Part shown: positions 324 to 14,982 of the stretch, piece after piece
How positions within the stretch are numbered: the stretch's first letter is position 1
How the letters are laid out: each line of letters begins with the position of its first letter
Assembly: GCA_900318085.1 (NCBI GenBank)
Contig: ONJF01000014.1
Location: forward strand, 1-53,563
DNA length: 53,563 nt
Source: an uncultured Bacteroidales bacterium
Lineage (GTDB): Bacteria; Bacteroidota; Bacteroidia; Bacteroidales; F082
Direction of reading: 5' to 3'
Position numbers and translations under genes: made by a program
The notes under the pieces: model-generated
What the model saw: only the letters and a program-made list of their open reading frames with translations
The model's database searches: none
Told to the model about the DNA's origin: nothing

Positions 324-2153
324 ATGAGCGGACGCATTGACAAAACTGAACTCATAAAAAAGCTCCGTGACCTCGAAGGCCTCACCAATGAGGAAAAGAG
401 CAACCTGATAGGACTGCTCAGGCAGCACAAGAAATACGGCCTCGTGTGGGAGGACAAACCCGAGGACGTTGAAGAACGTCTGCGCGAGGAATTGCCCATA
501 TTGAAAGAAGTGAAAGAGCGGGCACTCATTAGCGACCAGCCCGATGCACCCAACCACATCCTCATTGAAGGCGACAACCTCGAAGCCCTCACCGCACTAA
601 GCTACACCCACGAAGGCAAGATTGATGTCATCTATATTGATCCACCATACAACACGGGCAACAAGGATTTTGTCTATAACGATAGCTATGTTGACACCGA
701 GGACAGCTACCGCCACAGCAAATGGCTCTCTTTTATGAGCAAGCGCCTTCGCATCGCCAAACGGCTGCTCTCAGATAAAGGCGTGATTTTCATTTCCATT
801 GATGATAATGAACAGGCTAATTTGAAGTTGCTTTGTGATGAAGTGTTTGGAGAAAAGAATTTTGTTGACATTTTTTCATGGAACAAAACGGAAACTCCAG
901 CTAATCTTGCGTTAAAAACTAAAAAAGCAATAGAGTACATCATTTGCTATACAAAATTTACATCCCCAACAAAATTTAGGGGGTTAAATAAAACAAGTAC
1001 AAGTAACAATGGTTTGATGAATCAAACAAATTCAGTCCATATTCTTATTTTTCCCGCCAATAAGGTTGATACAAAACTTGCAAATGGTATTTATTCCAAA
1101 GGCAAGTATGGAACTTCATCGTATAACATTGAGTTACTTGAAGATACAGAGGTTAAAGACGGTTACTTTATTAGACCTGTTACTTTGCGTGGTAAATTCA
1201 AATGGGGTCAAGAAAATTTGGATAAGGAGATTTCTAAAGGGACTCAGATTTCCATTAAAACAATCGCTTTTTCACCATCTTATGAAAAGAAAGAATATGA
1301 GCCAGAAGTTCCATGGAATTTGATTAACAAGTCATTTGGTGTTGATACTAACGAAATAGCAGGAGCCCAACTTGTTGAGATAATGGGAGAAACTGTTTTT
1401 AGTTTTCCAAAACCAGTATCATTGGTTAAATATCTTATCAATTTTATTGAGGCAGAAAACACACTTGACTTCTTCGCTGGTTCAGGCACCACGCTCCACG
1501 CCACCATGCAACTCAATGCCGAGGATGGTGGCCACCGACAGTGCATCCTTGTCACCAACAACGAGAACGGTATCTGCGAGCAAGTCACTTACGAGCGAAA
1601 CAAGCGCGTCATTCAAGGCTACACCACACCTAAAGGCCAACAGGTGGAAGGCTTGCACGACAACAACCTGCGTTACTACCGCACGGGTTTTATTCCTCGT
1701 GAGCGTACCCAACGCAATATGCGTGCTTTGGTTAATGCAGCCACCGATTTGCTTTGCATCAAGGAAGATCTCTACCAAGAGAAGCCAATGCTCGGCACAT
1801 TGAAGCTGAAATCTCAGTTGGCTCGCTATTTCAGCGACGGGCAGAAACACATGCTCGTCGTTTACCGCGAAGAGGTGGCCAACGAGTTGGTAGAAGCCAT
1901 CAAAACTTTGGAGCTGGGAAAATCAATGTTGAAAATCTATATCTTCTCACCAGGTCGCTACGCTTTCGATGATGACTTTTACGAAGTCCAGGGCAAAGTC
2001 CAACTTGTGGCACTGCCCGCTGCCATCTACGATGCCTACCAGCGCGTATTGCCAAAGCAGGAGGAACGCCTGTTGGATGAAGCAGAAGTGCCTGCACCGC
2101 AACCCACAGCTTCTGCAATGACCATTGATTTCGAGGAAGGAGGTGAACAATGA
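324..2153 (+). CDS. Type III restriction-modification DNA methyltransferase (Mod)
   Basis: This is a 609-residue adenine-N6 DNA methyltransferase of the beta arrangement, with DPPY (residues 106-109) before the SAM-binding FAGSGTT (384-390). That order and length fit Mod subunits of type III systems, which recognise the target and methylate it. The frame is open from an ATG at 237, but that start has its GGA-rich stretch directly against the ATG and would translate the repeat at 288-301, so the ATG at 324 is preferred. The segment between the two motifs, where the target recognition domain lies, is clearly more AT-rich than both ends, which suggests exchange of specificity. The stop overlaps the start of the helicase-nuclease gene by 4 bp. 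Confidence 0.93.
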   Translation: MSGRIDKTELIKKLRDLEGLTNEEKSNLIGLLRQHKKYGLVWEDKPEDVEERLREELPILKEVKERALISDQPDAPNHILIEGDNLEALTALSYTHEGKIDVIYIDPPYNTGNKDFVYNDSYVDTEDSYRHSKWLSFMSKRLRIAKRLLSDKGVIFISIDDNEQANLKLLCDEVFGEKNFVDIFSWNKTETPANLALKTKKAIEYIICYTKFTSPTKFRGLNKTSTSNNGLMNQTNSVHILIFPANKVDTKLANGIYSKGKYGTSSYNIELLEDTEVKDGYFIRPVTLRGKFKWGQENLDKEISKGTQISIKTIAFSPSYEKKEYEPEVPWNLINKSFGVDTNEIAGAQLVEIMGETVFSFPKPVSLVKYLINFIEAENTLDFFAGSGTTLHATMQLNAEDGGHRQCILVTNNENGICEQVTYERNKRVIQGYTTPKGQQVEGLHDNNLRYYRTGFIPRERTQRNMRALVNAATDLLCIKEDLYQEKPMLGTLKLKSQLARYFSDGQKHMLVVYREEVANELVEAIKTLELGKSMLKIYIFSPGRYAFDDDFYEVQGKVQLVALPAAIYDAYQRVLPKQEERLLDEAEVPAPQPTASAMTIDFEEGGEQ

Positions 2154-4501
2154 AGGAACTAAAATATCAACAGAAAGCCATCCATGAGTTGGTGGAAAAG
2201 ACTATAGAACTGCTTAGCTTCAGTGGGCAACGCCGTACACTCATCTTCAAGGCTCCCACAGGCTCAGGCAAAACCGTCATGGCTTCGCAACTCTTGGCCA
2301 CGCTCACCGAGGAACTGCAATCGCGTGGCGATTGCCCCTACAAGCAGGTGGCCTACATCTGGATTGCGCCCAACAAATTGCACGAACAAAGCTATTTCAA
2401 GCTGAAAAACAGTTTTGCAGAAACCCGCCAGCTTCGCGCCATGCTCTACGACGAAATCGACCAATCCGATGGCTACATCCATCCGGGTGAAATTCTTTTT
2501 GTCAACTGGGAAAGCATCAACAAGGAAAAGAACATCATAGTTCGTGAAAGCGAACAAAACCTGTCGCTTTACGAAATCACCCGCCGCACACAAAACGAAA
2601 AAGGCATCCCCATCATTGTCATCATCGATGAGGAACACTTGTTTTGGTCGAAGACCGCCGACCAATCCAAGAAAGTGCTGGAGCGCATCAATCCCAAGGT
2701 GGAAATCCGAATTTCCGCCACACCGAAGACCCCAAGCGATTACATCGTCAACATACCTCGCGAAGCAGTAGTAAAAGAAGAGATGATCAAGAAGCAGGTC
2801 ATCCTGAATCCTGACATTGCGCAAGGCTACAACGACGACCGTGAGCTGAACCAGCACCTCATTAGCTGTGCCTTGGAGAAACGTAACCGTTTGGCGCAAG
2901 CCTATCAGGAACTCGGCGTAAACATTAATCCGCTGCTGTTGATTCAGTTGCCCAACGACACTTCGCTCAGCATGACGGAAGAGGACAACAAGATTGCCGA
3001 CCAAGTAAAGACCTATCTGAGTGCTGTCAAAGGCATCGATACGGACAATGGCAAACTCGCCATCTGGCTCTCCGGTGAGAAAGCCAACCTCACCGACCTT
3101 GAACAGCCCGACAACCTGGCGCAAGTCCTTCTTTTCAAGCAAGCCATCGCTTTAGGTTGGGACTGTCCCCGTGCTGCTGTATTGCTTATCTTCCGCAAGT
3201 TGCAGAGCGACACCTTCACCATTCAGACCGTCGGTCGCATCCTGCGAATGCCTGAGCAGAAGTTTTACACCAACAACATGCTTAATGTCGGCTATGTCTA
3301 TACCGACATCAGCAAAGACCGCATCCAGATTGTGGCCGAGGATATGGACTACCTCAGCACCGATACCCTGCAAGCCATCAGGCGCGAGAACCTCAACAAC
3401 GTGGAACTCGTTTCCTACTACAGTGAGCGCAAGAGTGCCGACCGCAACCGCCTTGGCCCCGATTTCAAGAAGGTGCTCATCGATACTTTCACCGACAATT
3501 GGCTATTGACCTACCAGCCGCTGTTATTCTCATTTGAGGAACTGGATGGCGAAGAAGTACCAAGGGAAGAGGGCGACGATGGCTTTGTGTCAACATGCTC
3601 CCGCAACCGCGAAATTGCCAAGTCACACATTCGTTTTGATGTCACTACCATCAATGTGGAAATCCCCTCTGATGTGGTCTTCCAAAACGAGTTGGGCATC
3701 ATCGAGGTAGGCGAAAAACGCAAGTTTGCCCGTACCGCTGGCGAAATCCACAGCATCTATATTGCCTATTGTCGTTCCCATCTGGGCAAGTTCGAGAAGA
3801 CGCACAGTACCGATGTCCTGGCCAGCTACTTGCTCGCCGCAATGGAAGAGTTGTTTGAGGTTTTTGAAACCGATGCCAAGAAGGTCATTTTATACCATTC
3901 CAACAAACCCAAGTTCTCAGACATCATTGCAAAGGCGCTCAATCGCTACGAACGCATTCTGCAAGCTCGTCAACGCCAAGCCCGTCAGCGTGGCTTCGAG
4001 CCTTACACATGGGAAGTACCAGCCGAATGTCTTTACAAAGAAGAAACCCATCAGGTCAAGCCTACTGTGAAAGACCATGCGCTGCTGCCCTTCATCGAGC
4101 TGAAGAAGGCTTTCAATCCCGAACAGATGTTCCGCGATTTCCTCGAAAGCCATGTCGCCAGCATCGACTGGTGGTATAAGAACGGCGATGAAGGTAAGCA
4201 GCACTACGCCATACCTTACGAGCAAAGCAATGGCGAGAAGGCGCTATTCTATGTGGATTTCATCATCCGCATGAAAAACGGCCAGGTGTTCCTCTTCGAC
4301 ACCAAGACCGAGAACAGCGACCCCGAAGCACCCAACAAGCACAATGCCCTTTTGGCCTACATGAAGGAACGCCCCGACGAAAACCTGAAGGGCGGTGTGA
4401 TTGTGGAAAAGAACGATGTGTGGTACTACTGCAAATATGCCATCCAAACCACTTCCGATGTTACAGGTTGGGATGCGTTTTTCCCTGACGAGTATAATTG
4501 A
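2150..4501 (+). CDS. Type III restriction enzyme helicase-nuclease subunit (Res)
   Basis: This 783-residue superfamily 2 helicase has a C-terminal nuclease. Visible motifs are Walker A PTGSGKT (36-42), a DEEH form of the DEAH box (160-163), SAT (189-191), and motif VI QTVGRILR near residue 358. Near residues 700-720 there is a PD-(D/E)xK-like pattern, VDFIIR followed by LFDTKT. In type III systems Res translocates or diffuses along DNA and cuts when unmethylated sites meet. The gene begins in an ATGA overlap with mod, so the two are translationally coupled. Length is somewhat shorter than classical EcoP1/EcoP15 Res. Confidence 0.92.
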   Translation: MKELKYQQKAIHELVEKTIELLSFSGQRRTLIFKAPTGSGKTVMASQLLATLTEELQSRGDCPYKQVAYIWIAPNKLHEQSYFKLKNSFAETRQLRAMLYDEIDQSDGYIHPGEILFVNWESINKEKNIIVRESEQNLSLYEITRRTQNEKGIPIIVIIDEEHLFWSKTADQSKKVLERINPKVEIRISATPKTPSDYIVNIPREAVVKEEMIKKQVILNPDIAQGYNDDRELNQHLISCALEKRNRLAQAYQELGVNINPLLLIQLPNDTSLSMTEEDNKIADQVKTYLSAVKGIDTDNGKLAIWLSGEKANLTDLEQPDNLAQVLLFKQAIALGWDCPRAAVLLIFRKLQSDTFTIQTVGRILRMPEQKFYTNNMLNVGYVYTDISKDRIQIVAEDMDYLSTDTLQAIRRENLNNVELVSYYSERKSADRNRLGPDFKKVLIDTFTDNWLLTYQPLLFSFEELDGEEVPREEGDDGFVSTCSRNREIAKSHIRFDVTTINVEIPSDVVFQNELGIIEVGEKRKFARTAGEIHSIYIAYCRSHLGKFEKTHSTDVLASYLLAAMEELFEVFETDAKKVILYHSNKPKFSDIIAKALNRYERILQARQRQARQRGFEPYTWEVPAECLYKEETHQVKPTVKDHALLPFIELKKAFNPEQMFRDFLESHVASIDWWYKNGDEGKQHYAIPYEQSNGEKALFYVDFIIRMKNGQVFLFDTKTENSDPEAPNKHNALLAYMKERPDENLKGGVIVEKNDVWYYCKYAIQTTSDVTGWDAFFPDEYN

Positions 4502-4515
4502 AAAAACACAAGAAT

Positions 4516-4734
4516 ATGAGCAAAGGTATTGATAGCGTTTTCCTGCACTACGGCGTGCGCAAGGAAGATATGGAACTCATCCTCCAAACCTGTCGCGACA
4601 ACGACATCAATGAGGAATGGCTTAAAGAGAACATCTTGAAACCATATAATGAAGCGCGAACCCAGCAAAACACAGTGGATGAGCGCACCCTTATGAAAAT
4701 CATGAAACGTGCCATCAAAAACGTCCAGCCATGA
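4516..4734 (+). CDS. Small protein of a defence operon, unknown function
   Basis: The ATG at 4516 gives 72 residues; a TTG at 4498 is also in frame. The protein is charged and looks helical, with no signal peptide, membrane segment or cysteine motif. Its position, 14 bp after res and overlapping the next start by 4 bp (ATGA at 4731-4734), argues that it is a real part of the operon. I do not recognise the family. A subunit linking the nuclease to the SMC-like ATPase is possible but unproven. Confidence 0.72.
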   Translation: MSKGIDSVFLHYGVRKEDMELILQTCRDNDINEEWLKENILKPYNEARTQQNTVDERTLMKIMKRAIKNVQP

Positions 4735-6269
4735 AGATCAAGAGAATCTACGCCGAAAACTATAAGACCTACAAGAAGTTGGACTTGAACCTTGAAGTCA
4801 CGGCAGACCGTCCCATCATCCTGATAGGTGGTGGTAACGGTTGCGGTAAGACCACGCTTTTCGATGCCATCTATCATGCGTTGTATGGCTTGGAAATCAA
4901 AAGTGTGAAGCACTTTGAGGAGCTTTTCAACGCAGGAGTAATGGTTGAGAACAAAGGCTTTAACAACAGCCAAATCGTGCTGCAAATCGACTTCACGGGC
5001 ATGGTGCTGGCCAAGGAAGAGCAATACAGGCTAAAACGCGCCTATATGGTACTGAACGACCGTGTTGTCGAATCGGTCACGCTCTCCATGGGTGGCAACA
5101 ACTTCGTCTATGGCAGTGGTTCATCCCAGTCCGATAGGGCACAAAACGAAGAGGTGGTGAACAAAATCATCACAGCCAACCTGCCAGCTGAGCTGAGCAA
5201 TTATTTCCTCTTCGATGCCATGAAAACCAGCGAGTTGGTCAAGGAAGAGCAAATCAACAAGTTGATAATGAATAATATCAACTCTGTCATGGGCTTCAGC
5301 AAATACAGCCAAATGCGCAAAGCCGCTGATGCCTTGTTGTCTGAAAAGAAAGCCGAGCGTATGGAGAATGAGAACCAACGCAAAGCGTATGGCAAATTAG
5401 TGGCTGATAAACAACAGTTGGAAAAAGAAGTTGAAAAACTGGACGATGATTATGCCAAAGCCCTCGAATATGCCAACGAGCACAAAGAACAGTATGACCA
5501 ACTGAAAGAAGGCCGTAATGCCGATGACGTTACCCGTGACAAGATTAAGAAAGTAGAACAAACCATACAAGCTACCCTGAAAGCTGAAGCTGAGTACTTG
5601 CAAAATGTCGATGCTATGGCCAAGGATATCGAAACGCAAGTGATCATCCCGAAGCTGGCCAGCATCATCAGCACTGAAGTTGAGGTCATCCTCCACGCCA
5701 AAGAGGAAGTGGCCAGTGCCAGAATCAACCTTTTGACCGACCAACAGATTGAGCTGTTCACCCATAATCTTGTCAAGGTCATCGAAGAACGTTATATGCC
5801 AAGTAAGCGTCTTGATGTTCCTTCGTTGATTGAGGAGATGAAGTTGTGGCAAGAGAAGGAAAACACCGTCGAAGACAGGTTTGCATTCTTCACGTCAGCC
5901 GAAGTGACGCTGTTGAAAGACACGGTTCGCACTGCCATGTCAAATCCCTTCATCCTTTTGGACGAGCAAAGGGAAATGCTCAACCAGGACATTCACGACA
6001 TGCCCAAGCAGCGAGAACTCATTAAGGACTACCAACGCAGCTTGAATGGCAACGACTACACCATCATCCAACTATATGAGAACAATGCAAAGCGTATCGA
6101 CGAACTAAAAGATGCTATTGGCACTAAGAAAGCTACTATCAAAGATTTAGAAGGACAGATTAGCAAATTTGATTACGAGATTCCGCAGATTCCCGACCCA
6201 CAATATGACTTGCTCTGCAAACTGCCCGATTTCTTCAAGCAGCTCTCAACCAAACTGCTTCGTGCCTGA
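4731..6269 (+). CDS. DndD-like SMC-family ATPase, N-terminal part (frameshifted)
   Basis: The protein opens with a DndD/RecN-type ATPase head, with Walker A GGGNGCGKT at residues 33-41. Long charged stretches follow (about 190-300 and 400-490) that look like coiled coil, with no CxxC zinc hook. The frame stops at 6269, before the signature motif and Walker B. Those continue in another frame up to 6712, so a complete DndD-like protein of about 660 residues has been split by one base. Adding one A to the AAA run at 6252-6254 would join the halves. In Dnd systems DndD is an ATPase working with DndC and DndE on DNA; no DndC is visible here. The gene overlaps the small protein upstream by 4 bp. 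Confidence 0.85.
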   Translation: MKIKRIYAENYKTYKKLDLNLEVTADRPIILIGGGNGCGKTTLFDAIYHALYGLEIKSVKHFEELFNAGVMVENKGFNNSQIVLQIDFTGMVLAKEEQYRLKRAYMVLNDRVVESVTLSMGGNNFVYGSGSSQSDRAQNEEVVNKIITANLPAELSNYFLFDAMKTSELVKEEQINKLIMNNINSVMGFSKYSQMRKAADALLSEKKAERMENENQRKAYGKLVADKQQLEKEVEKLDDDYAKALEYANEHKEQYDQLKEGRNADDVTRDKIKKVEQTIQATLKAEAEYLQNVDAMAKDIETQVIIPKLASIISTEVEVILHAKEEVASARINLLTDQQIELFTHNLVKVIEERYMPSKRLDVPSLIEEMKLWQEKENTVEDRFAFFTSAEVTLLKDTVRTAMSNPFILLDEQREMLNQDIHDMPKQRELIKDYQRSLNGNDYTIIQLYENNAKRIDELKDAIGTKKATIKDLEGQISKFDYEIPQIPDPQYDLLCKLPDFFKQLSTKLLRA

Positions 6270-6349
6270 ACCAAAATCTCGTTGTTTATGCTGGTGTCAT
6301 TGGCCGTGTCGAACTCTCCACGGGCAACAGCGATGACATCTCGTTCAAG

Positions 6350-6712
6350 ATGTACCACAAAGACGGCAACGAGATTTTCCTAAGCCAACTCAATGCCGGT
6401 GCCAAGCAAACGGTCATGCAGGTGCTGCTGAAGGTGCTCTATAACCTTGGCGACTATGAGCCACCTGTAATGATCGATACGGTCATGGGTGTACTCGACA
6501 AGGAAAGCCGTGAGGTCATCCTGGAACACTACTTCCCGGATTTGGCGCACCAAACCATCCTGCTCAGCACCGATACCGAAATCACCACCGAGCACGACTT
6601 CGAACGCCTGCAGGCGTATGTGGCCAAGACATATACGCTACACCGCGACAAACAGAATCAGTGTACCACCATCACTGAAGACTATTTCGGACTACAAACC
6701 AAAGAAATCTAA
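6350..6712 (+). CDS. DndD-like ATPase, C-terminal part (after frameshift)
   Basis: This frame carries the second half of the SMC-type ATPase head: the signature LNAGAKQ, the Walker B stretch VMIDTVMGVLD, and the switch-like ILLSTDTEIT typical of DndD ends. It is open back to at least 6242, so the ATG at 6350 is only the first available start and probably not a true one. The usual DndD signature reads LSAGEKQ; here Ser is Asn and Glu is Ala. The piece has no use without the N-terminal half at 4731-6269. The split is either a sequencing or assembly error, a real mutation, or a slippage site. Confidence 0.75.
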   Translation: MYHKDGNEIFLSQLNAGAKQTVMQVLLKVLYNLGDYEPPVMIDTVMGVLDKESREVILEHYFPDLAHQTILLSTDTEITTEHDFERLQAYVAKTYTLHRDKQNQCTTITEDYFGLQTKEI

Positions 6713-6764
6713 CAGCCATGAACAATATCGCACAATTGACAATAAAGGGTGTCATGAACAACGG

Positions 6765-8267
6765 TTGAATCTTGATGAATATACCGAAAACGTCAGACCT
6801 GTTACTTTGAATCAGAGTAATGTGTTGCGTATTTGTCTTCTGGCTGGTCTTAGCGACAAGTCGAAACGTGTTATTGATGAAGCCACCACGAGCTTGACAC
6901 TATCGCGAACACCTTATGCAACTACTTTTTTCACTAAGTCTAACATTGGCGACTTGTTTGAAGCGTTGCTGAAGCTGCGCTATCATGATGTGGATGCCGA
7001 TTGGACAGCTCCCAAGGTGGTAAGCCGTGTGATAGGCCGTGAAATTCTCCGTGGCCGCGACATCCTGCTGAAGGAAGGTGCCATTGACGAATGGCTTACC
7101 TATATGCCGTTGCGTGGCGGACGCTCTCTCTCAGCCATCCCAGAACTTAATCTGCTCATTGGCCAATATGAAAACGGCATGGATGCCACACTCGACATCA
7201 ATAGCCGTAACATCGCCAACACTCAAATCATCATTGCCGGAACGACGGGTTCAGGAAAGTCAAATCTTATCTCGGTACTCATCAATCAGATCAGAAGCGC
7301 GTCATCCGACACGCACTATCCCGTCAACTTCCTGCTCTTCGACTACAAAGGCGAGTTTTCCGACCCCGCCAATGCCGATTGGTTGCAACAGTTTGACACC
7401 GACCGTTCCGCTATCCTTAATCCCATCGAGAAGCCGCTTCCATTCACTCCGTTCAAGGATTTCAGCGACCGCCCCATCAATGAGGTCAATCTCTATGCAA
7501 CTTCGCTTTCCACGGCCTTGTGTGCCATTTCGCCTGCAACCATCAGCTCCAATATGGACAACAGACTGAGCGAAGCCATCATCAATGCCTACAAGAAGCA
7601 GAACTTGAAGCCTATCACCTTCAAGCAAGTCCTCGACGAATACAAGGCATTGTTGCCTGCCAAAAAACATGATGAAGTGGATAGCGTGGTCTCAGTGTTA
7701 AGCCAGCTGGTCAGAAACAACATCTTTGCCGAGGAGGACAAAATCGACTTGCTCCGTAACTGCTATATCATCAATCTCGGCGGCTTCGAGAAAGATGGCA
7801 TCATGGCCAAGGCCATAGTCTATTTCGTTATCTCCAAGTTGAACGCAATTTATGAAAAGTTGCCCAAGCAGGCCACCAATGAAGACCGTGTAGAAATCCG
7901 TCACTTCACCATCATCGACGAGGCTCACTACATGCTGAGCTTCGAAAATAAACCTTTACAGAACCTGATTGCTGTGGGCCGCAACAAGGGTATGAGCATC
8001 ATCCTGGCTACCCAAAACATGGAAAGCTTCAAGAGCAAACATTTCGACTTCTATGCCAATGCCCAATATCCGCTAATCATGCGTCAGCAACAGCAGAACG
8101 ACGCAGTGCTGAAAGACCTGTTTGGCGTGTCAGGTGGCGCATTGCAAGAAATCAAGCAAGCCATTGCTGGACTGGAGAAAGGTGAGCTTATCACCAAAGA
8201 TGCTGCCAATATGGCCTTGGGCATCGGCAAGCATTGGCAGAAGATTAAAGTCACCCATTTGATTTAA
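6765..8267 (+). CDS. HerA/FtsK-like DNA-translocating ATPase
   Basis: About 500 residues with a RecA-fold ATPase of the HerA/FtsK type: Walker A TTGSGKSN near residue 158, DYKGEF after it, and Walker B TIIDEAH near residue 383 followed by a glutamine-rich arginine-finger-like segment. The N-terminal 130 residues weakly resemble DndE in size and in an LRICLLAGL stretch, but this is uncertain. No ATG suits the frame. An ATG at 6718, 5 bp after the previous stop, encodes a 16-residue beginning in another frame, and one extra T in the TT at 6765-6766 would join it to this gene. The TTG at 6765 is used here as the first in-frame start. The next gene's first ATG (8267) touches the stop codon. Confidence 0.85.
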   Translation: MNLDEYTENVRPVTLNQSNVLRICLLAGLSDKSKRVIDEATTSLTLSRTPYATTFFTKSNIGDLFEALLKLRYHDVDADWTAPKVVSRVIGREILRGRDILLKEGAIDEWLTYMPLRGGRSLSAIPELNLLIGQYENGMDATLDINSRNIANTQIIIAGTTGSGKSNLISVLINQIRSASSDTHYPVNFLLFDYKGEFSDPANADWLQQFDTDRSAILNPIEKPLPFTPFKDFSDRPINEVNLYATSLSTALCAISPATISSNMDNRLSEAIINAYKKQNLKPITFKQVLDEYKALLPAKKHDEVDSVVSVLSQLVRNNIFAEEDKIDLLRNCYIINLGGFEKDGIMAKAIVYFVISKLNAIYEKLPKQATNEDRVEIRHFTIIDEAHYMLSFENKPLQNLIAVGRNKGMSIILATQNMESFKSKHFDFYANAQYPLIMRQQQQNDAVLKDLFGVSGGALQEIKQAIAGLEKGELITKDAANMALGIGKHWQKIKVTHLI

Positions 8268-8272
8268 TGCCT

Positions 8273-9142
8273 ATGGATTCCAAGGAACTGAAGAAAGCAC
8301 AAGAGGCCATCGAAATGCTCCAACAGCTGAATCTGCCTGTCGGCGAACAGCAGTTGGAAGCCTTGGCTTCGCTGGAGAAGGAATACCTTGAAAAAGAAGT
8401 GCTGCCTCCTGCCATTGAGGTTATGCGCTCTAAGGTCAGCTACTTAAAAACCACTTTCCTTGTGTCAATCAAGTATTCCGAAAAGGATGGATTACAATTA
8501 GAATCCATTGAAGCGCAAATAGAAAAAACTCCCAAAGACAAGGCCGAGGATTTGGCCACAGTCAAAGACACTGACGAAAGTCGCTATCTGGGAGTAGATC
8601 CTGTAAGCGGAAAGAAGGTATATGTGAAAATTACAAAACGTGGGCTACTGGCTCAGTTGGGTGAACTCAACACTCCAGAAAAGCCAAAGTTCGCCCGTTT
8701 GAGAAGAGGAACAGACATCGACGAGGTCACTTTAGAGGAAGTGTTGTCGATATTCAAGTTCCCTCGCACACTTGGCTTTTTTGAAGGCAAGGAAGTCGTT
8801 GTCGGTATCGGCCCTTTTGGCCCTTATGTCAAGCACAACGAAAAGTACTACAATCTGTCCAGGGAAGACGACCCTCATACGATTAGTTACGAAAGAGCAC
8901 TTGAAATCGTAAAGACCAAACGGGAGCTTGGAATAGGTGAAGTCATTTTGGAGTTTGAAAACGACCCCGACATCCGCGTCATCAATGGACGTTTTGGCCC
9001 TTACATCAAATATAAGAAGAACAATTACAAGGTTCCCCGTCAAATGACACCTTCCTTATTGTCCTATGAGGATTGTCTGGCAATAATAAAAGACCCTGCC
9101 AATGCAGCCCAAAAATGGGTGCCAAGAAACAAGCAAGAATAA
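8273..9142 (+). CDS. Protein with stand-alone topoisomerase-I C-terminal repeats
   Basis: 289 residues in two parts. Residues 1-85 form a helical domain shared with the next gene: MDSKELKKAQEAIEML here aligns with MDKDKLQKAYEAVEML there. The rest contains Toprim-C-repeat-like modules, recognised by FARLRRG, FPRTLGFFEGKEVVVGIG, FGPYVKH and NGRFGPYIKY, which closely resemble the end of Bacteroidota TopA. No Toprim domain or catalytic tyrosine region is present. TopA C-terminal repeats bind single-stranded DNA, so a DNA-binding role is inferred. The ATG at 8273 is chosen over 8267 because the paralogue aligns from it. Confidence 0.82.
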   Translation: MDSKELKKAQEAIEMLQQLNLPVGEQQLEALASLEKEYLEKEVLPPAIEVMRSKVSYLKTTFLVSIKYSEKDGLQLESIEAQIEKTPKDKAEDLATVKDTDESRYLGVDPVSGKKVYVKITKRGLLAQLGELNTPEKPKFARLRRGTDIDEVTLEEVLSIFKFPRTLGFFEGKEVVVGIGPFGPYVKHNEKYYNLSREDDPHTISYERALEIVKTKRELGIGEVILEFENDPDIRVINGRFGPYIKYKKNNYKVPRQMTPSLLSYEDCLAIIKDPANAAQKWVPRNKQE

Positions 9143-9154
9143 AACACTAAAGTC

Positions 9155-9823
9155 ATGGATAAAGACAAACTACAAAAAGCCTACGAAGCCGTCGAAATGC
9201 TGAAGGCATTAGATTTGCCAGTCAGTAGGGAACAGTTGGACACAATATATAACTTGGAAGAGAACTATCTCAAAGAGGAGGTGATTCCATTTATTAAAGG
9301 CGAATTAAATCCATTGGTAAAAGATATGATGGGAGATTTCTATTTGGAGGTTTCGTATTCAAAGAATGACGGGTTAAATGTTCATTATTTAAACGATTTC
9401 AAGACTCAAGAGAATAGCAGAGGAAGGAGAAAAGCAACAGAAACAACACATAAACCTGAAAAACATATAACCAAGGAGGTTCAATATGATGCTTTGAAAA
9501 GTGTACTAGGCACAAAAAAGAAACAAGCGACATCACTAAAAGTATATAGGGAGGACAATAGTGCTATTGAAGAAGCCTCATCAGCGTTGACCCTTTGTGA
9601 AACTATAAAGGAAATTGGTGCAGAAAAAGTATATAACTTGTTTATTCCTTTGGATGGCATGTATCTGGTTATGAAAACCAAGAATTCGGATGTTCGTAGA
9701 GATTTACATTATATAGGCGACGGCTATTATGTCAATACACATAGCAATACGATGTCAAAGAAGCGCCATCTTGAACGAATTTTCCGTGATTTGAAATTAA
9801 GTTGGAAAGTCGAAATAGTCTGA
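9155..9823 (+). CDS. Paralogue of the preceding protein with a different C-terminal domain
   Basis: 222 residues, starting 12 bp after the previous gene. The first 85 residues match the N-terminal domain of that gene, including conserved LP(V), EQL, EENYLKEEVIP and YSKNDGL. A low-complexity linker follows, rich in Lys, Thr and Glu (about 88-120). The C-terminal 90 residues form a separate domain with ALTLCETIKEIG, GDGYYVNTHSNTMSKKRHLE and a WKVEIV end. I have no named family for that domain. The base composition is more AT-rich than the upstream gene. Sharing one domain and varying the other suggests two partners that dock onto the same component of the system. Confidence 0.75.
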   Translation: MDKDKLQKAYEAVEMLKALDLPVSREQLDTIYNLEENYLKEEVIPFIKGELNPLVKDMMGDFYLEVSYSKNDGLNVHYLNDFKTQENSRGRRKATETTHKPEKHITKEVQYDALKSVLGTKKKQATSLKVYREDNSAIEEASSALTLCETIKEIGAEKVYNLFIPLDGMYLVMKTKNSDVRRDLHYIGDGYYVNTHSNTMSKKRHLERIFRDLKLSWKVEIV

Positions 9824-13872: not shown

Positions 13873-14982
13873 ATGAAGACACCGCTTTGGATATGGCAAT
13901 ATGCCGAATGGCCTCATTTCTGTTGGAGCAACGACAGTGTCATTGGTCCATTGGCACGGGTACGCGAAAAGCAAGGTAGGCTACTTGGACTGATGAACAG
14001 CCTAGGTCTTGACACGCAAAGCACCTCATCGCTTGAGGTGATGACCGAAGATGTGTTACGCAATAGCGAAATCGAAGGCTTGCTCCTTAACCCCAATCAT
14101 GTGCGTTCATCGGTGGCTCGTCATCTTGGCCTTGACACTGCCGGCTTGCCTATGCCCGACCATTACACCGAGGGCGTAGTACAAGTGATGTTGGATGCCG
14201 TACAACACGCCAATGCTCCATTGACCGAGCAACGCCTGTTCAACTGGCATGCCGCCCTGTTTCCCTTGGGACGAAGCGGTATCGTCCCTATCACTGTGGC
14301 AGCATGGCGACAAGGCGCAGAGCCAATGCAAGTGGTCAGTGGTGCCATGGGAAAAGAGACTATTCATTACGAGGCACCACCGTCGGAGGACGTGCCCCAT
14401 CAGATGCAACTATTCTTGGATTGGTTCAACAGTGAGCCTACCACCGACCCCGTGCTGAAAGCCGCCGTAGCCCATCTTTGGTTTGTCAACATTCACCCCT
14501 TTGACGATGGCAATGGACGCTTGACACGCACGCTCACCGATATGCTCTTGGCTCGTGCCGATGGCACACCCCAACGCTTCTACAGCATGTCGGCAGCCAT
14601 CTTGCGCGATAGGAAGAACTACTACGATGTGTTGGAATACATGGGCAAACACGGTCTGGACATCACGCAGTGGCTTTTGTGGTTCTTACAGACTATGGAA
14701 AGCGCCATTGACACCGCCGTTGAAAAGACACATCGGGTGGTGCGCAAATCCTTGTTTTGGCAAGAACATTGTAACGCTGCCCTCAACGAGAGACAAATAA
14801 AAGTCATCAACCTCCTTTGGGACGGTTTCGAGGGCAAACTCAACACCAGCAAATGGGCCAAAATGACCAAGACTTCCACTGCCACTGCTTTGCGCGACAT
14901 ACAAGACCTTGTCGAGAAAGGCATACTTCGCTGCTCCAACGAAGGCGGACGGAGCACGAATTATGAACTAATAGAGGAATAA
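13873..14982 (+). CDS. Fic family protein with N-terminal DUF4172-like domain
   Basis: 369 residues. The Fic core motif HPFDDGNGR is at residues 208-216, with the catalytic His208; such enzymes usually transfer AMP onto target proteins. The N-terminal part (WIWQYAEWPHFCW onward) matches the DUF4172 region of this class, and the last 70 residues look like a winged-helix DNA-binding domain. The inhibitory helix motif of the family is [S/T]xxxE[G/N]; here the segment reads NSEIEG, with Asn at the first position, so autoinhibition may differ. The gene has its own promoter and terminator and no neighbouring antitoxin, which fits a self-contained class II Fic protein. Confidence 0.92.
   Translation: MKTPLWIWQYAEWPHFCWSNDSVIGPLARVREKQGRLLGLMNSLGLDTQSTSSLEVMTEDVLRNSEIEGLLLNPNHVRSSVARHLGLDTAGLPMPDHYTEGVVQVMLDAVQHANAPLTEQRLFNWHAALFPLGRSGIVPITVAAWRQGAEPMQVVSGAMGKETIHYEAPPSEDVPHQMQLFLDWFNSEPTTDPVLKAAVAHLWFVNIHPFDDGNGRLTRTLTDMLLARADGTPQRFYSMSAAILRDRKNYYDVLEYMGKHGLDITQWLLWFLQTMESAIDTAVEKTHRVVRKSLFWQEHCNAALNERQIKVINLLWDGFEGKLNTSKWAKMTKTSTATALRDIQDLVEKGILRCSNEGGRSTNYELIEE

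Follow-up and report, generated by a model that had tools for sequence, protein, structure and literature searches.

Type III restriction genes joined to a conserved Sp-DndD, DndD and HerA cassette in Bacteroidota

Type III restriction is usually described as a two-gene arrangement. In a contig of 53,563 nucleotides from an uncultured Bacteroidales bacterium (ONJF01000014.1 of assembly GCA_900318085.1; this whole stretch is called the window here), a type III methyltransferase gene (mod) and a restriction subunit gene (res) are followed by genes for a 72-residue protein (sp), a DndD-like ATPase and a HerA/FtsK-like ATPase, and then by two further genes, orf291 and orf222. This locus raises the question of which of the additional genes belong to the restriction pair, and what they might do for it. 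An earlier note, made from the letters alone, had proposed that all seven form one hybrid defence system. We find that mod, res, the gene for a small protein akin to the Sp-DndD family, dndD and herA are a conserved five-gene system, and that related five-gene sets are common in Bacteroidota, which adds three conserved genes to type III restriction.

The extent of conservation was established with a HerA alignment (A1) that was scanned over one genome per species, yielding 184 relatives, of which the best 80 loci were kept. These loci include near relatives of one another and, because they were picked by HerA, they inform on the occurrence of HerA without mod-res and not on the reverse. In 57 of these loci, 7.5 kb or more of sequence precedes herA. 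Among these, dndD is present in all 57 and sp, res and mod are present in 56 each, and the complete order mod, res, sp, dndD, herA on one strand is found in 56. The sole exception, L080, carries a dndD fragment. The earlier note had reasoned that its proposal would fall if the ATPases usually occurred apart from mod and res, and this is not what the 56 of 57 loci show. By title, most of the loci are from Bacteroidota; L116 is from Ignavibacteriales, L104 comes from a bacterium without a name, and L119 and L063, two possibly mis-binned metagenome-assembled genomes, bear the labels Alphaproteobacteria and Clostridium. A HerA search at the level of the order added six further genomes: the five genes are complete in two, and the loci of two others run off the contig. 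The remaining two are G356, in which dndD and herA are broken, a res remnant persists and mod was not found, and G128, in which sp, dndD and herA are present and mod and res were not found on the short contig. All five genes are long single frames in Xylanibacter ruminicola D31d (L087) and Segatella copri iA622 (L079).

The five genes are not always contiguous. Between the core genes of 16 of the 80 loci lie 19 unlabelled plus-strand frames of at least 100 amino acids, some perhaps spurious, and the guest proteins inside the operon in some loci include RhuM, Abi_2, YhcG and Schlafen AlbA_2. A Septu-like pair (PtuA, 5e-91; PtuB, 1.6e-38) stands between mod and res in genome G886 (L203, G886:C24:27000-40000; 3394-5476, minus strand), and in L192 an AAA_15/DUF3696 protein, a 350-residue unidentified frame and a GmrSD_N protein occupy 3159-6866, between res and the small gene. 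Spread of the core on plasmids was considered and rejected, as 72,556 plasmid records yielded no HerA match at 1e-20. Phage records yielded two HerA matches at 1e-10, H2 (L147) and H3 (25% identity). L147 (MT835906.1), an unverified contig of 15.6 kb deposited as a bacteriophage, encodes the complete five-gene core and may stem from a bacterium.

The reverse view was obtained from Res, a relative of which (E ≤ 1e-15) occurs in 18 of 386 genomes of the order. The sp-dndD-herA cassette was seen in none of 14 further Res loci that were fetched. Of the closer ones, L172 and L173 break off at res or close to it; L174 leaves 1.8 kb downstream in view. One of the cassette-less loci, L171 (G021:C13:5000-24000), encodes a mod-res pair whose Res is 58% identical to that of the window, and the cassette is absent despite room for it; this is a second mod-res of the same group, and genome G021 carries it in addition to a full system. 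In a tree of 75 Res sequences (63 with the cassette, nine without and three at contig edges), made by a quick method and with several long branches flagged, the 63 cassette rows fall into one group with L171 and the edge row L172 (support 99), and the eight other cassette-less rows and two edge rows fall outside it. The cassette label changes three times on this tree, compared with a mean of 11.3 when labels are shuffled. Together with the 56 of 57 loci, the grouping of Res bears out the proposal that the restriction genes and the DndD-HerA pair recur as one unit.

Within this unit, two modules can be recognized. Distance correlations were computed from identity matrices for the 48 loci in which all five genes are long frames, and are highest inside the cassette (0.93 for dndD-herA, 0.89 for sp-dndD and 0.86 for sp-herA), compared with 0.67 for mod-res and 0.51 to 0.72 between modules. 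Res distances follow those of the cassette at 0.70 to 0.72 and Mod distances do so at 0.51 to 0.53, with the hypervariable middle of Mod adding noise to the latter. None of 999 permutations, which leave shared species history in place, reached any observed correlation. These values agree with the earlier picture of a restriction core with an add-on formed by HerA and an ATPase of the SMC (structural maintenance of chromosomes) kind, and sp-dndD-herA most likely forms a second module whose genes evolve together and which was passed on with this line of Res proteins. The window shows exchange, as the nearest relatives of its proteins differ by module: the best counterparts of sp, dndD and herA are in L117 (57, 61 and 76%), mod is closest to L084 and L088 (60 and 59%), and res is closest to L089 and L088 (72 and 70%). 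Ratios of nonsynonymous to synonymous substitution rates (dN/dS) between sister copies are 0.00 to 0.015 for herA, 0.03 to 0.06 for dndD, 0.05 to 0.08 for sp (one pair being identical), 0.05 to 0.08 for res (three pairs) and 0.08 to 0.15 for orf291; mod and orf222 were left out of this comparison. Thus res, sp, dndD, herA and orf291 are under purifying selection, which, taken with the grouping of Res, argues that the parts work together.

In the window, the seven genes all lie on the plus strand, with junctions that are overlaps of 1 to 4 nucleotides or short gaps. PADLOC profiles were run protein by protein over eight window proteins and not as system rules. The first gene, mod (324..2153), encodes a type III DNA methyltransferase (PADLOC MTase_III, 1.2e-89; PF01555, 1e-32) in which the DPPY motif lies upstream of FAGSGTT. 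Its middle, approximately positions 898 to 1460, is exchangeable: blastn comparisons with the sister copies L190 and L191 align 321-898 (80.5 and 85.0%), leave the middle unaligned and resume at 1460 (94.5 and 91.2%). This middle is also weakly conserved across 53 aligned Mod sequences and is presumed to be the target recognition region. The overlapping res (2150..4501) encodes the type III restriction subunit (PF04851, 2.5e-15; PADLOC REase_III, 1.6e-19), which has a superfamily 2 (SF2) helicase and a C-terminal D..DTK stretch conserved in 61 Res sequences. Reading by eye, we take this stretch to be the nuclease motif.

The third gene (4516..4734) encodes the 72-residue protein, which recurs in the core, and whose kinship with the Sp-DndD family (PF20306, E 0.0049) the earlier note had missed. 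All 53 small proteins of alignment A4 match PF20306 at E ≤ 0.1, the best at 4.5e-12, and 43 of them additionally match PF25723 at the same limit, the best at 1e-4. The window protein scores 17.4 bits with PF20306, below the cut-off of 27.2, and a PF20306 search of 395 Bacteroidota genomes gave four hits and missed the window copy. The profile therefore undercounts this branch. Matches of the small protein to solved structures are weak (0.029 to 0.13). Related sets also occur beside other genes, since at two of the four hits, L142 and L144, the Sp-DndD, DndD and DndE-HerA genes are headed by a different large gene and mod-res is absent. The head protein (L142, 6250-8451; L144, 6188-8185) has 666 to 734 residues and a stretch like sigma-70 region 4, with a helicase-associated domain in L142, and is perhaps another partner of the same scanner. 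The third hit, in L143, lies inside a long frame beside dndD, and at the fourth, L145, a homologue of the small protein (8250-8525, minus strand; hmmsearch 4.1e-26) has no adjoining dndD.

The DndD-like ABC ATPase of the window is encoded in two pieces. The N-terminal part (4731..6269), truncated by a frameshift, matches PADLOC DndD at 5.7e-33 and TIGR03185 at 7e-31, and the C-terminal part (6263..6712; 149 residues), in another frame, matches PADLOC DndD at 8.4e-30 over profile positions 540-658 and TIGR03185 at 3.2e-25. Their TIGR03185 scores of 107.4 and 88.7 bits are each under the equivalog cut-off of 245.85. Solved-structure searches were empty for DndD (E ≤ 1e-5), orf222 (E ≤ 1) and Res (E ≤ 0.001). 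The herA/ftsK-like gene (6720..8267), the 5' end of which is out of frame, matches the HerA region of DndH at 6.4e-31, and the best solved-structure match of the HerA family profile is DptH (7es4, 1.8e-15). The Pfam and PADLOC scans listed no nuclease family for the products of sp, dndD or herA.

Several observations connect this HerA protein to DndE-HerA fusions. DndE (PF08870) was found in seven of 149 genomes of the order, and in six of these it lies within a frame of 532 to 547 residues, the size of HerA here. In five fetched loci, the DndE-HerA gene is downstream of dndD and of a gene with an SGGKDST motif that we read by eye as dndC. The HerA domains correspond with an hhalign probability of 99.7, and the total protein lengths are about equal. 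When the DndE profile was applied to 77 HerA N-termini, the median score was 4.1 bits, compared with -0.6 for shuffled sequences (95% point 2.2), and the top matches were mostly in one register. These scores suggest that the HerA N-terminus may be a diverged DndE. PF08870 was unmatched at E ≤ 0.001 in the genome of the window, nor was it among the 25 of 64 families listed for the HerA alignment. A dndC gene was likewise not detected in this genome (TIGR03183, E ≤ 0.001), in a search whose controls gave matches in five of 14 genomes, none above the cut-off. That result upholds the earlier observation that dndC is missing, and with the recurrence of mod-res beside the cassette it supports methylation as the likely DNA mark.

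The last two genes differ from the core. The product of orf291 (8267..9142) begins with a stretch in common with orf222 (approximately 80 residues, 38% identity; the C-termini differ) and continues with topoisomerase I C-terminal repeats (PF13368, 3.9e-40, in three stretches), and residues 105-288 share 53% identity with a portion of a 783-residue frame elsewhere in the genome, presumably TopA. The earlier description of an unknown two-gene module hence holds for orf222 (9155..9823), to which PADLOC, Pfam, NCBIfam and PHROGs assigned no family at the thresholds applied, and fails for orf291 with its Toprim_C_rpt repeats. In the genus, herA is present in nine of 99 genomes, and in six of these (the window, G900, G874, G911, G883 and G886) it is followed by orf291 and an orf222-type gene. 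The other three (G902, G875 and G894) carry the five-gene core, and each yields a single orf291 match, from residue 105 onward, within a frame of 777 to 808 residues that is presumably TopA. Full-length orf291 occurs in six of 173 family genomes among the matches listed. Complete seven-gene stretches were found in G874 (L190) and G911 (L191) and, with extra genes, in G886 (L193, L203); mod is cut by the locus start in G883 (L192), and the G900 locus (L189) begins inside res. The seven-gene set as a general unit was rejected, as blastp searches (E ≤ 1e-5) with orf291 and orf222 were unmatched in the 80 HerA loci, 65 of which extend 2 kb or more beyond herA. The expected recurrence of all seven genes is therefore seen in other genomes of the genus and not across the 80 loci, and orf291 and orf222 are an accessory pair of one genus subclade.

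The orf222 gene is exchangeable. The window copy is 97% identical to that of L192 and 37 to 39% identical to those of L189, L190, L191 and L193, which argues for exchange between copies, and its G+C content is 0.36, compared with 0.51 for the window. Outside the genus, relatives (E ≤ 0.001) occur in nine of 392 other genomes of the order. Eleven of their loci were fetched (L033-L043, three of them from G111), and six include a methylase gene that belongs to another restriction system; it is of type I in L033 and L043, Eco57I-like in L034, L035 and L038, and a relative of type III mod in L037. No methylase was seen among the neighbours scanned in L036 or L039-L042. A plasmid-borne relative adjoins an N-6 methylase, an SNF2 protein and a TIR protein, and no relatives were found in a scan of viral contigs. 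These settings in other restriction loci speak further against the claim that the last two genes belong to a general unit. A few kilobases downstream of the locus, the window also encodes a Fic/DOC protein with DUF4172 (13873-14982).

What might the cassette do? We lean towards the view that the locus is a type III restriction-modification (R-M) system with a dedicated Dnd-type DNA-scanning module that helps restriction. Mod would set the target through its variable middle and methylate adenine in host DNA, and Res together with Mod would cut unmarked DNA. Most probably DndD would clamp or loop DNA, the HerA protein would touch it with its N-terminal domain, and the HerA ring would travel along it, such that scanning of incoming or replicating DNA would deliver Res to unmethylated sites or license it there. 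The small protein could be an adaptor or a brake, and orf291 and orf222, added in one genus subclade, are perhaps DNA-binding adaptors. The methylated base, the formation of a complex, the direction of the help and the parts played by the small protein, orf291 and orf222 are inferred. Help directed to restriction is suggested because the cassette lies downstream of res and its distances match those of res more closely than those of mod, and because the mod-res of L171 lives without the cassette.

A number of points weigh against this view. The close cassette-less pair L171 indicates that mod-res may work alone, and the differing nearest relatives of Mod and Res and of the cassette in the window indicate that the coupling of the modules is exchangeable. 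Co-inheritance is no proof of a physical complex. In Dnd systems, DndD and DndE work on the modification side, so the help of the cassette may go to Mod and not to Res. Profile comparison of the N-terminal 150 residues of HerA with DndE was not significant (E 0.24 and 0.16), and the best shuffled DndE score (13.9 bits) exceeds that of the best real HerA N-terminus (11.5 bits). Finally, the window copy is broken in both dndD and herA.

Assistance to modification is an unlikely alternative. DndD and the DndE-like/HerA protein would then scan host DNA and load Mod, and Res would be an ordinary type III enzyme. A type III Mod is known to methylate without help of the DndD/HerA type, which counts against such a role, as does the closer tracking of the cassette by Res than by Mod, even with the noise that the Mod middle adds. 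The five Bacteroidales loci with DndE-HerA after dndD and the SGGKDST gene fit this alternative, and the model in Rakesh et al. 2024 (PMC10853773) places DndD-DndE at target recognition for modification. The same paper proposes that HerA capture systems intercept invader DNA during segregation, transfer or packaging, and we consider it rather improbable that the cassette is a separate guard of this type, which would travel with mod-res, strike invader DNA or kill the cell if restriction fails and leave the mod-res chemistry untouched. The sets in L142 and L144, with another large gene and no mod-res, favour a guard or backup, as do the other defence genes found inside the operon (PtuA-PtuB in G886, GmrSD_N in L192). 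Nonetheless, the five genes occur together in 56 of 57 loci with Res grouping accordingly, and the scans listed no nuclease family for the three cassette proteins.

That the genes are chance neighbours in a defence island is very improbable. The extra frames between core genes in 16 of 80 loci, some of them defence genes, would suit such an island, and this explanation is contradicted by the one gene order in 56 of 57 loci and by the Res grouping. A different matter is the state of the window copy, which is probably decaying or misassembled; the cassette would then be idle in this host, with mod-res perhaps still working, and this is compatible with the other readings. A stop at 6269 interrupts dndD, the remainder of which continues in another frame to 6712, and 37 nucleotides are absent at 6266 relative to L117 and three sister copies of the genus (L189, L190 and L191, with 94.7, 94.5 and 91.2% DNA identity to the window over a long aligned stretch). 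In herA, 49 nucleotides near 6754 are absent relative to the three sisters, which places the start off-frame. Coordinates and family scans confirm the seven closely spaced plus-strand genes of the earlier note, which overlooked these losses. Both genes are open in L189 and L191; L190 has an open herA and a separate 1-nucleotide frameshift in dndD, and dndD is not a single frame of at least 640 residues in five of 70 other loci (among them the fragment in L080). Between the window and L189, herA has no amino-acid change over 501 aligned codons despite a dS of 0.28, so the damage is recent, and any decay very recent, or it is an assembly error. Decay of this copy also leaves the family as a whole unexplained.

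The preferred reading, a scanning module that helps type III restriction, can be set beside known systems. PADLOC profiles split the parts of the locus among different systems, and the names DndH and PbeC were rejected as its identity because single domains match and the partners differ. Type III R-M systems of the EcoP1I/EcoP15I kind are the reference for the first two genes. The adjacent DPPY Mod with a variable middle and the Res with an SF2 helicase and a D..DxK-like stretch conform to these; Res is 783 residues long here with modest REase_III scores, and three extra conserved genes follow. Proteins of the Sp-DndD family are small proteins of certain Dnd DNA modification systems, and here a protein akin to them adjoins type III mod-res. 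PbeABCD and CxC-DndE systems share with this locus an ABC ATPase of the DndD/CxC group, a small protein and an SF2 helicase enzyme, whereas HerA and a type III Mod are present here and no conserved CxC was seen in the DndD consensus. No PLD/HKD family was listed for Res at E ≤ 0.01 (Pfam), and its PbeA match is weak (0.0016) and confined to the helicase part. With DndFGH, only the HerA region of DndH is matched, as the top PADLOC hit of the HerA protein, and DndF and DndG are not among the matches listed for the eight proteins. Mod, DndD and HerA match mad2, mad3 and mad8 of MADS, the methylation-associated defence system (7.7e-7, 8.2e-11 and 1.3e-17), below their MTase_III, DndD and DndH scores, and other mad genes are not among the matches listed, save a weak mad8 match for Res (0.0011).

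The nearest counterpart is the Dnd system with a DndE-HerA fusion (HerA clade 3), for which Rakesh et al. 2024 (PMC10853773) describe a DndE-HerA fusion beside a DndD-related ATPase. The locus described here shares with it a DndD-related ABC ATPase beside a HerA/FtsK protein of approximately 527 residues with an N-terminal domain of approximately 150 residues, and differs in that dndC was undetected in the genome, type III mod-res stands in its place and the DndE part is not significantly detectable. The paper also reports cytosine methylases with CxC systems, and in the passages searched 'type III restriction' occurs once, in the reference list. A description of the five-gene union was not found in the literature search, with Krishnan et al. 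2020 as the likeliest prior source of a possible mention. More tentatively, the locus might exemplify a distinct R-M class, in which a Dnd scanning core switched from sulfur to adenine methylation and became the motor and licensing device that a type III endonuclease cannot do without, and to which one genus has added a pair of exchangeable adaptors, one of them built of topoisomerase I repeats; we regard this as possible and short of probable. Because dndC is missing beside many DndD-DndE cores, Rakesh et al. 2024 raise the idea that some of these may serve modifications other than phosphorothioation. The five-gene set, a common case of a DndD-DndE-like core joined to a type III methylase, bears on that question, which is now testable because all five genes are long single frames in the two named strains. 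The Dnd-type scanner and the type III enzymes are known separately, and their union is the new element.

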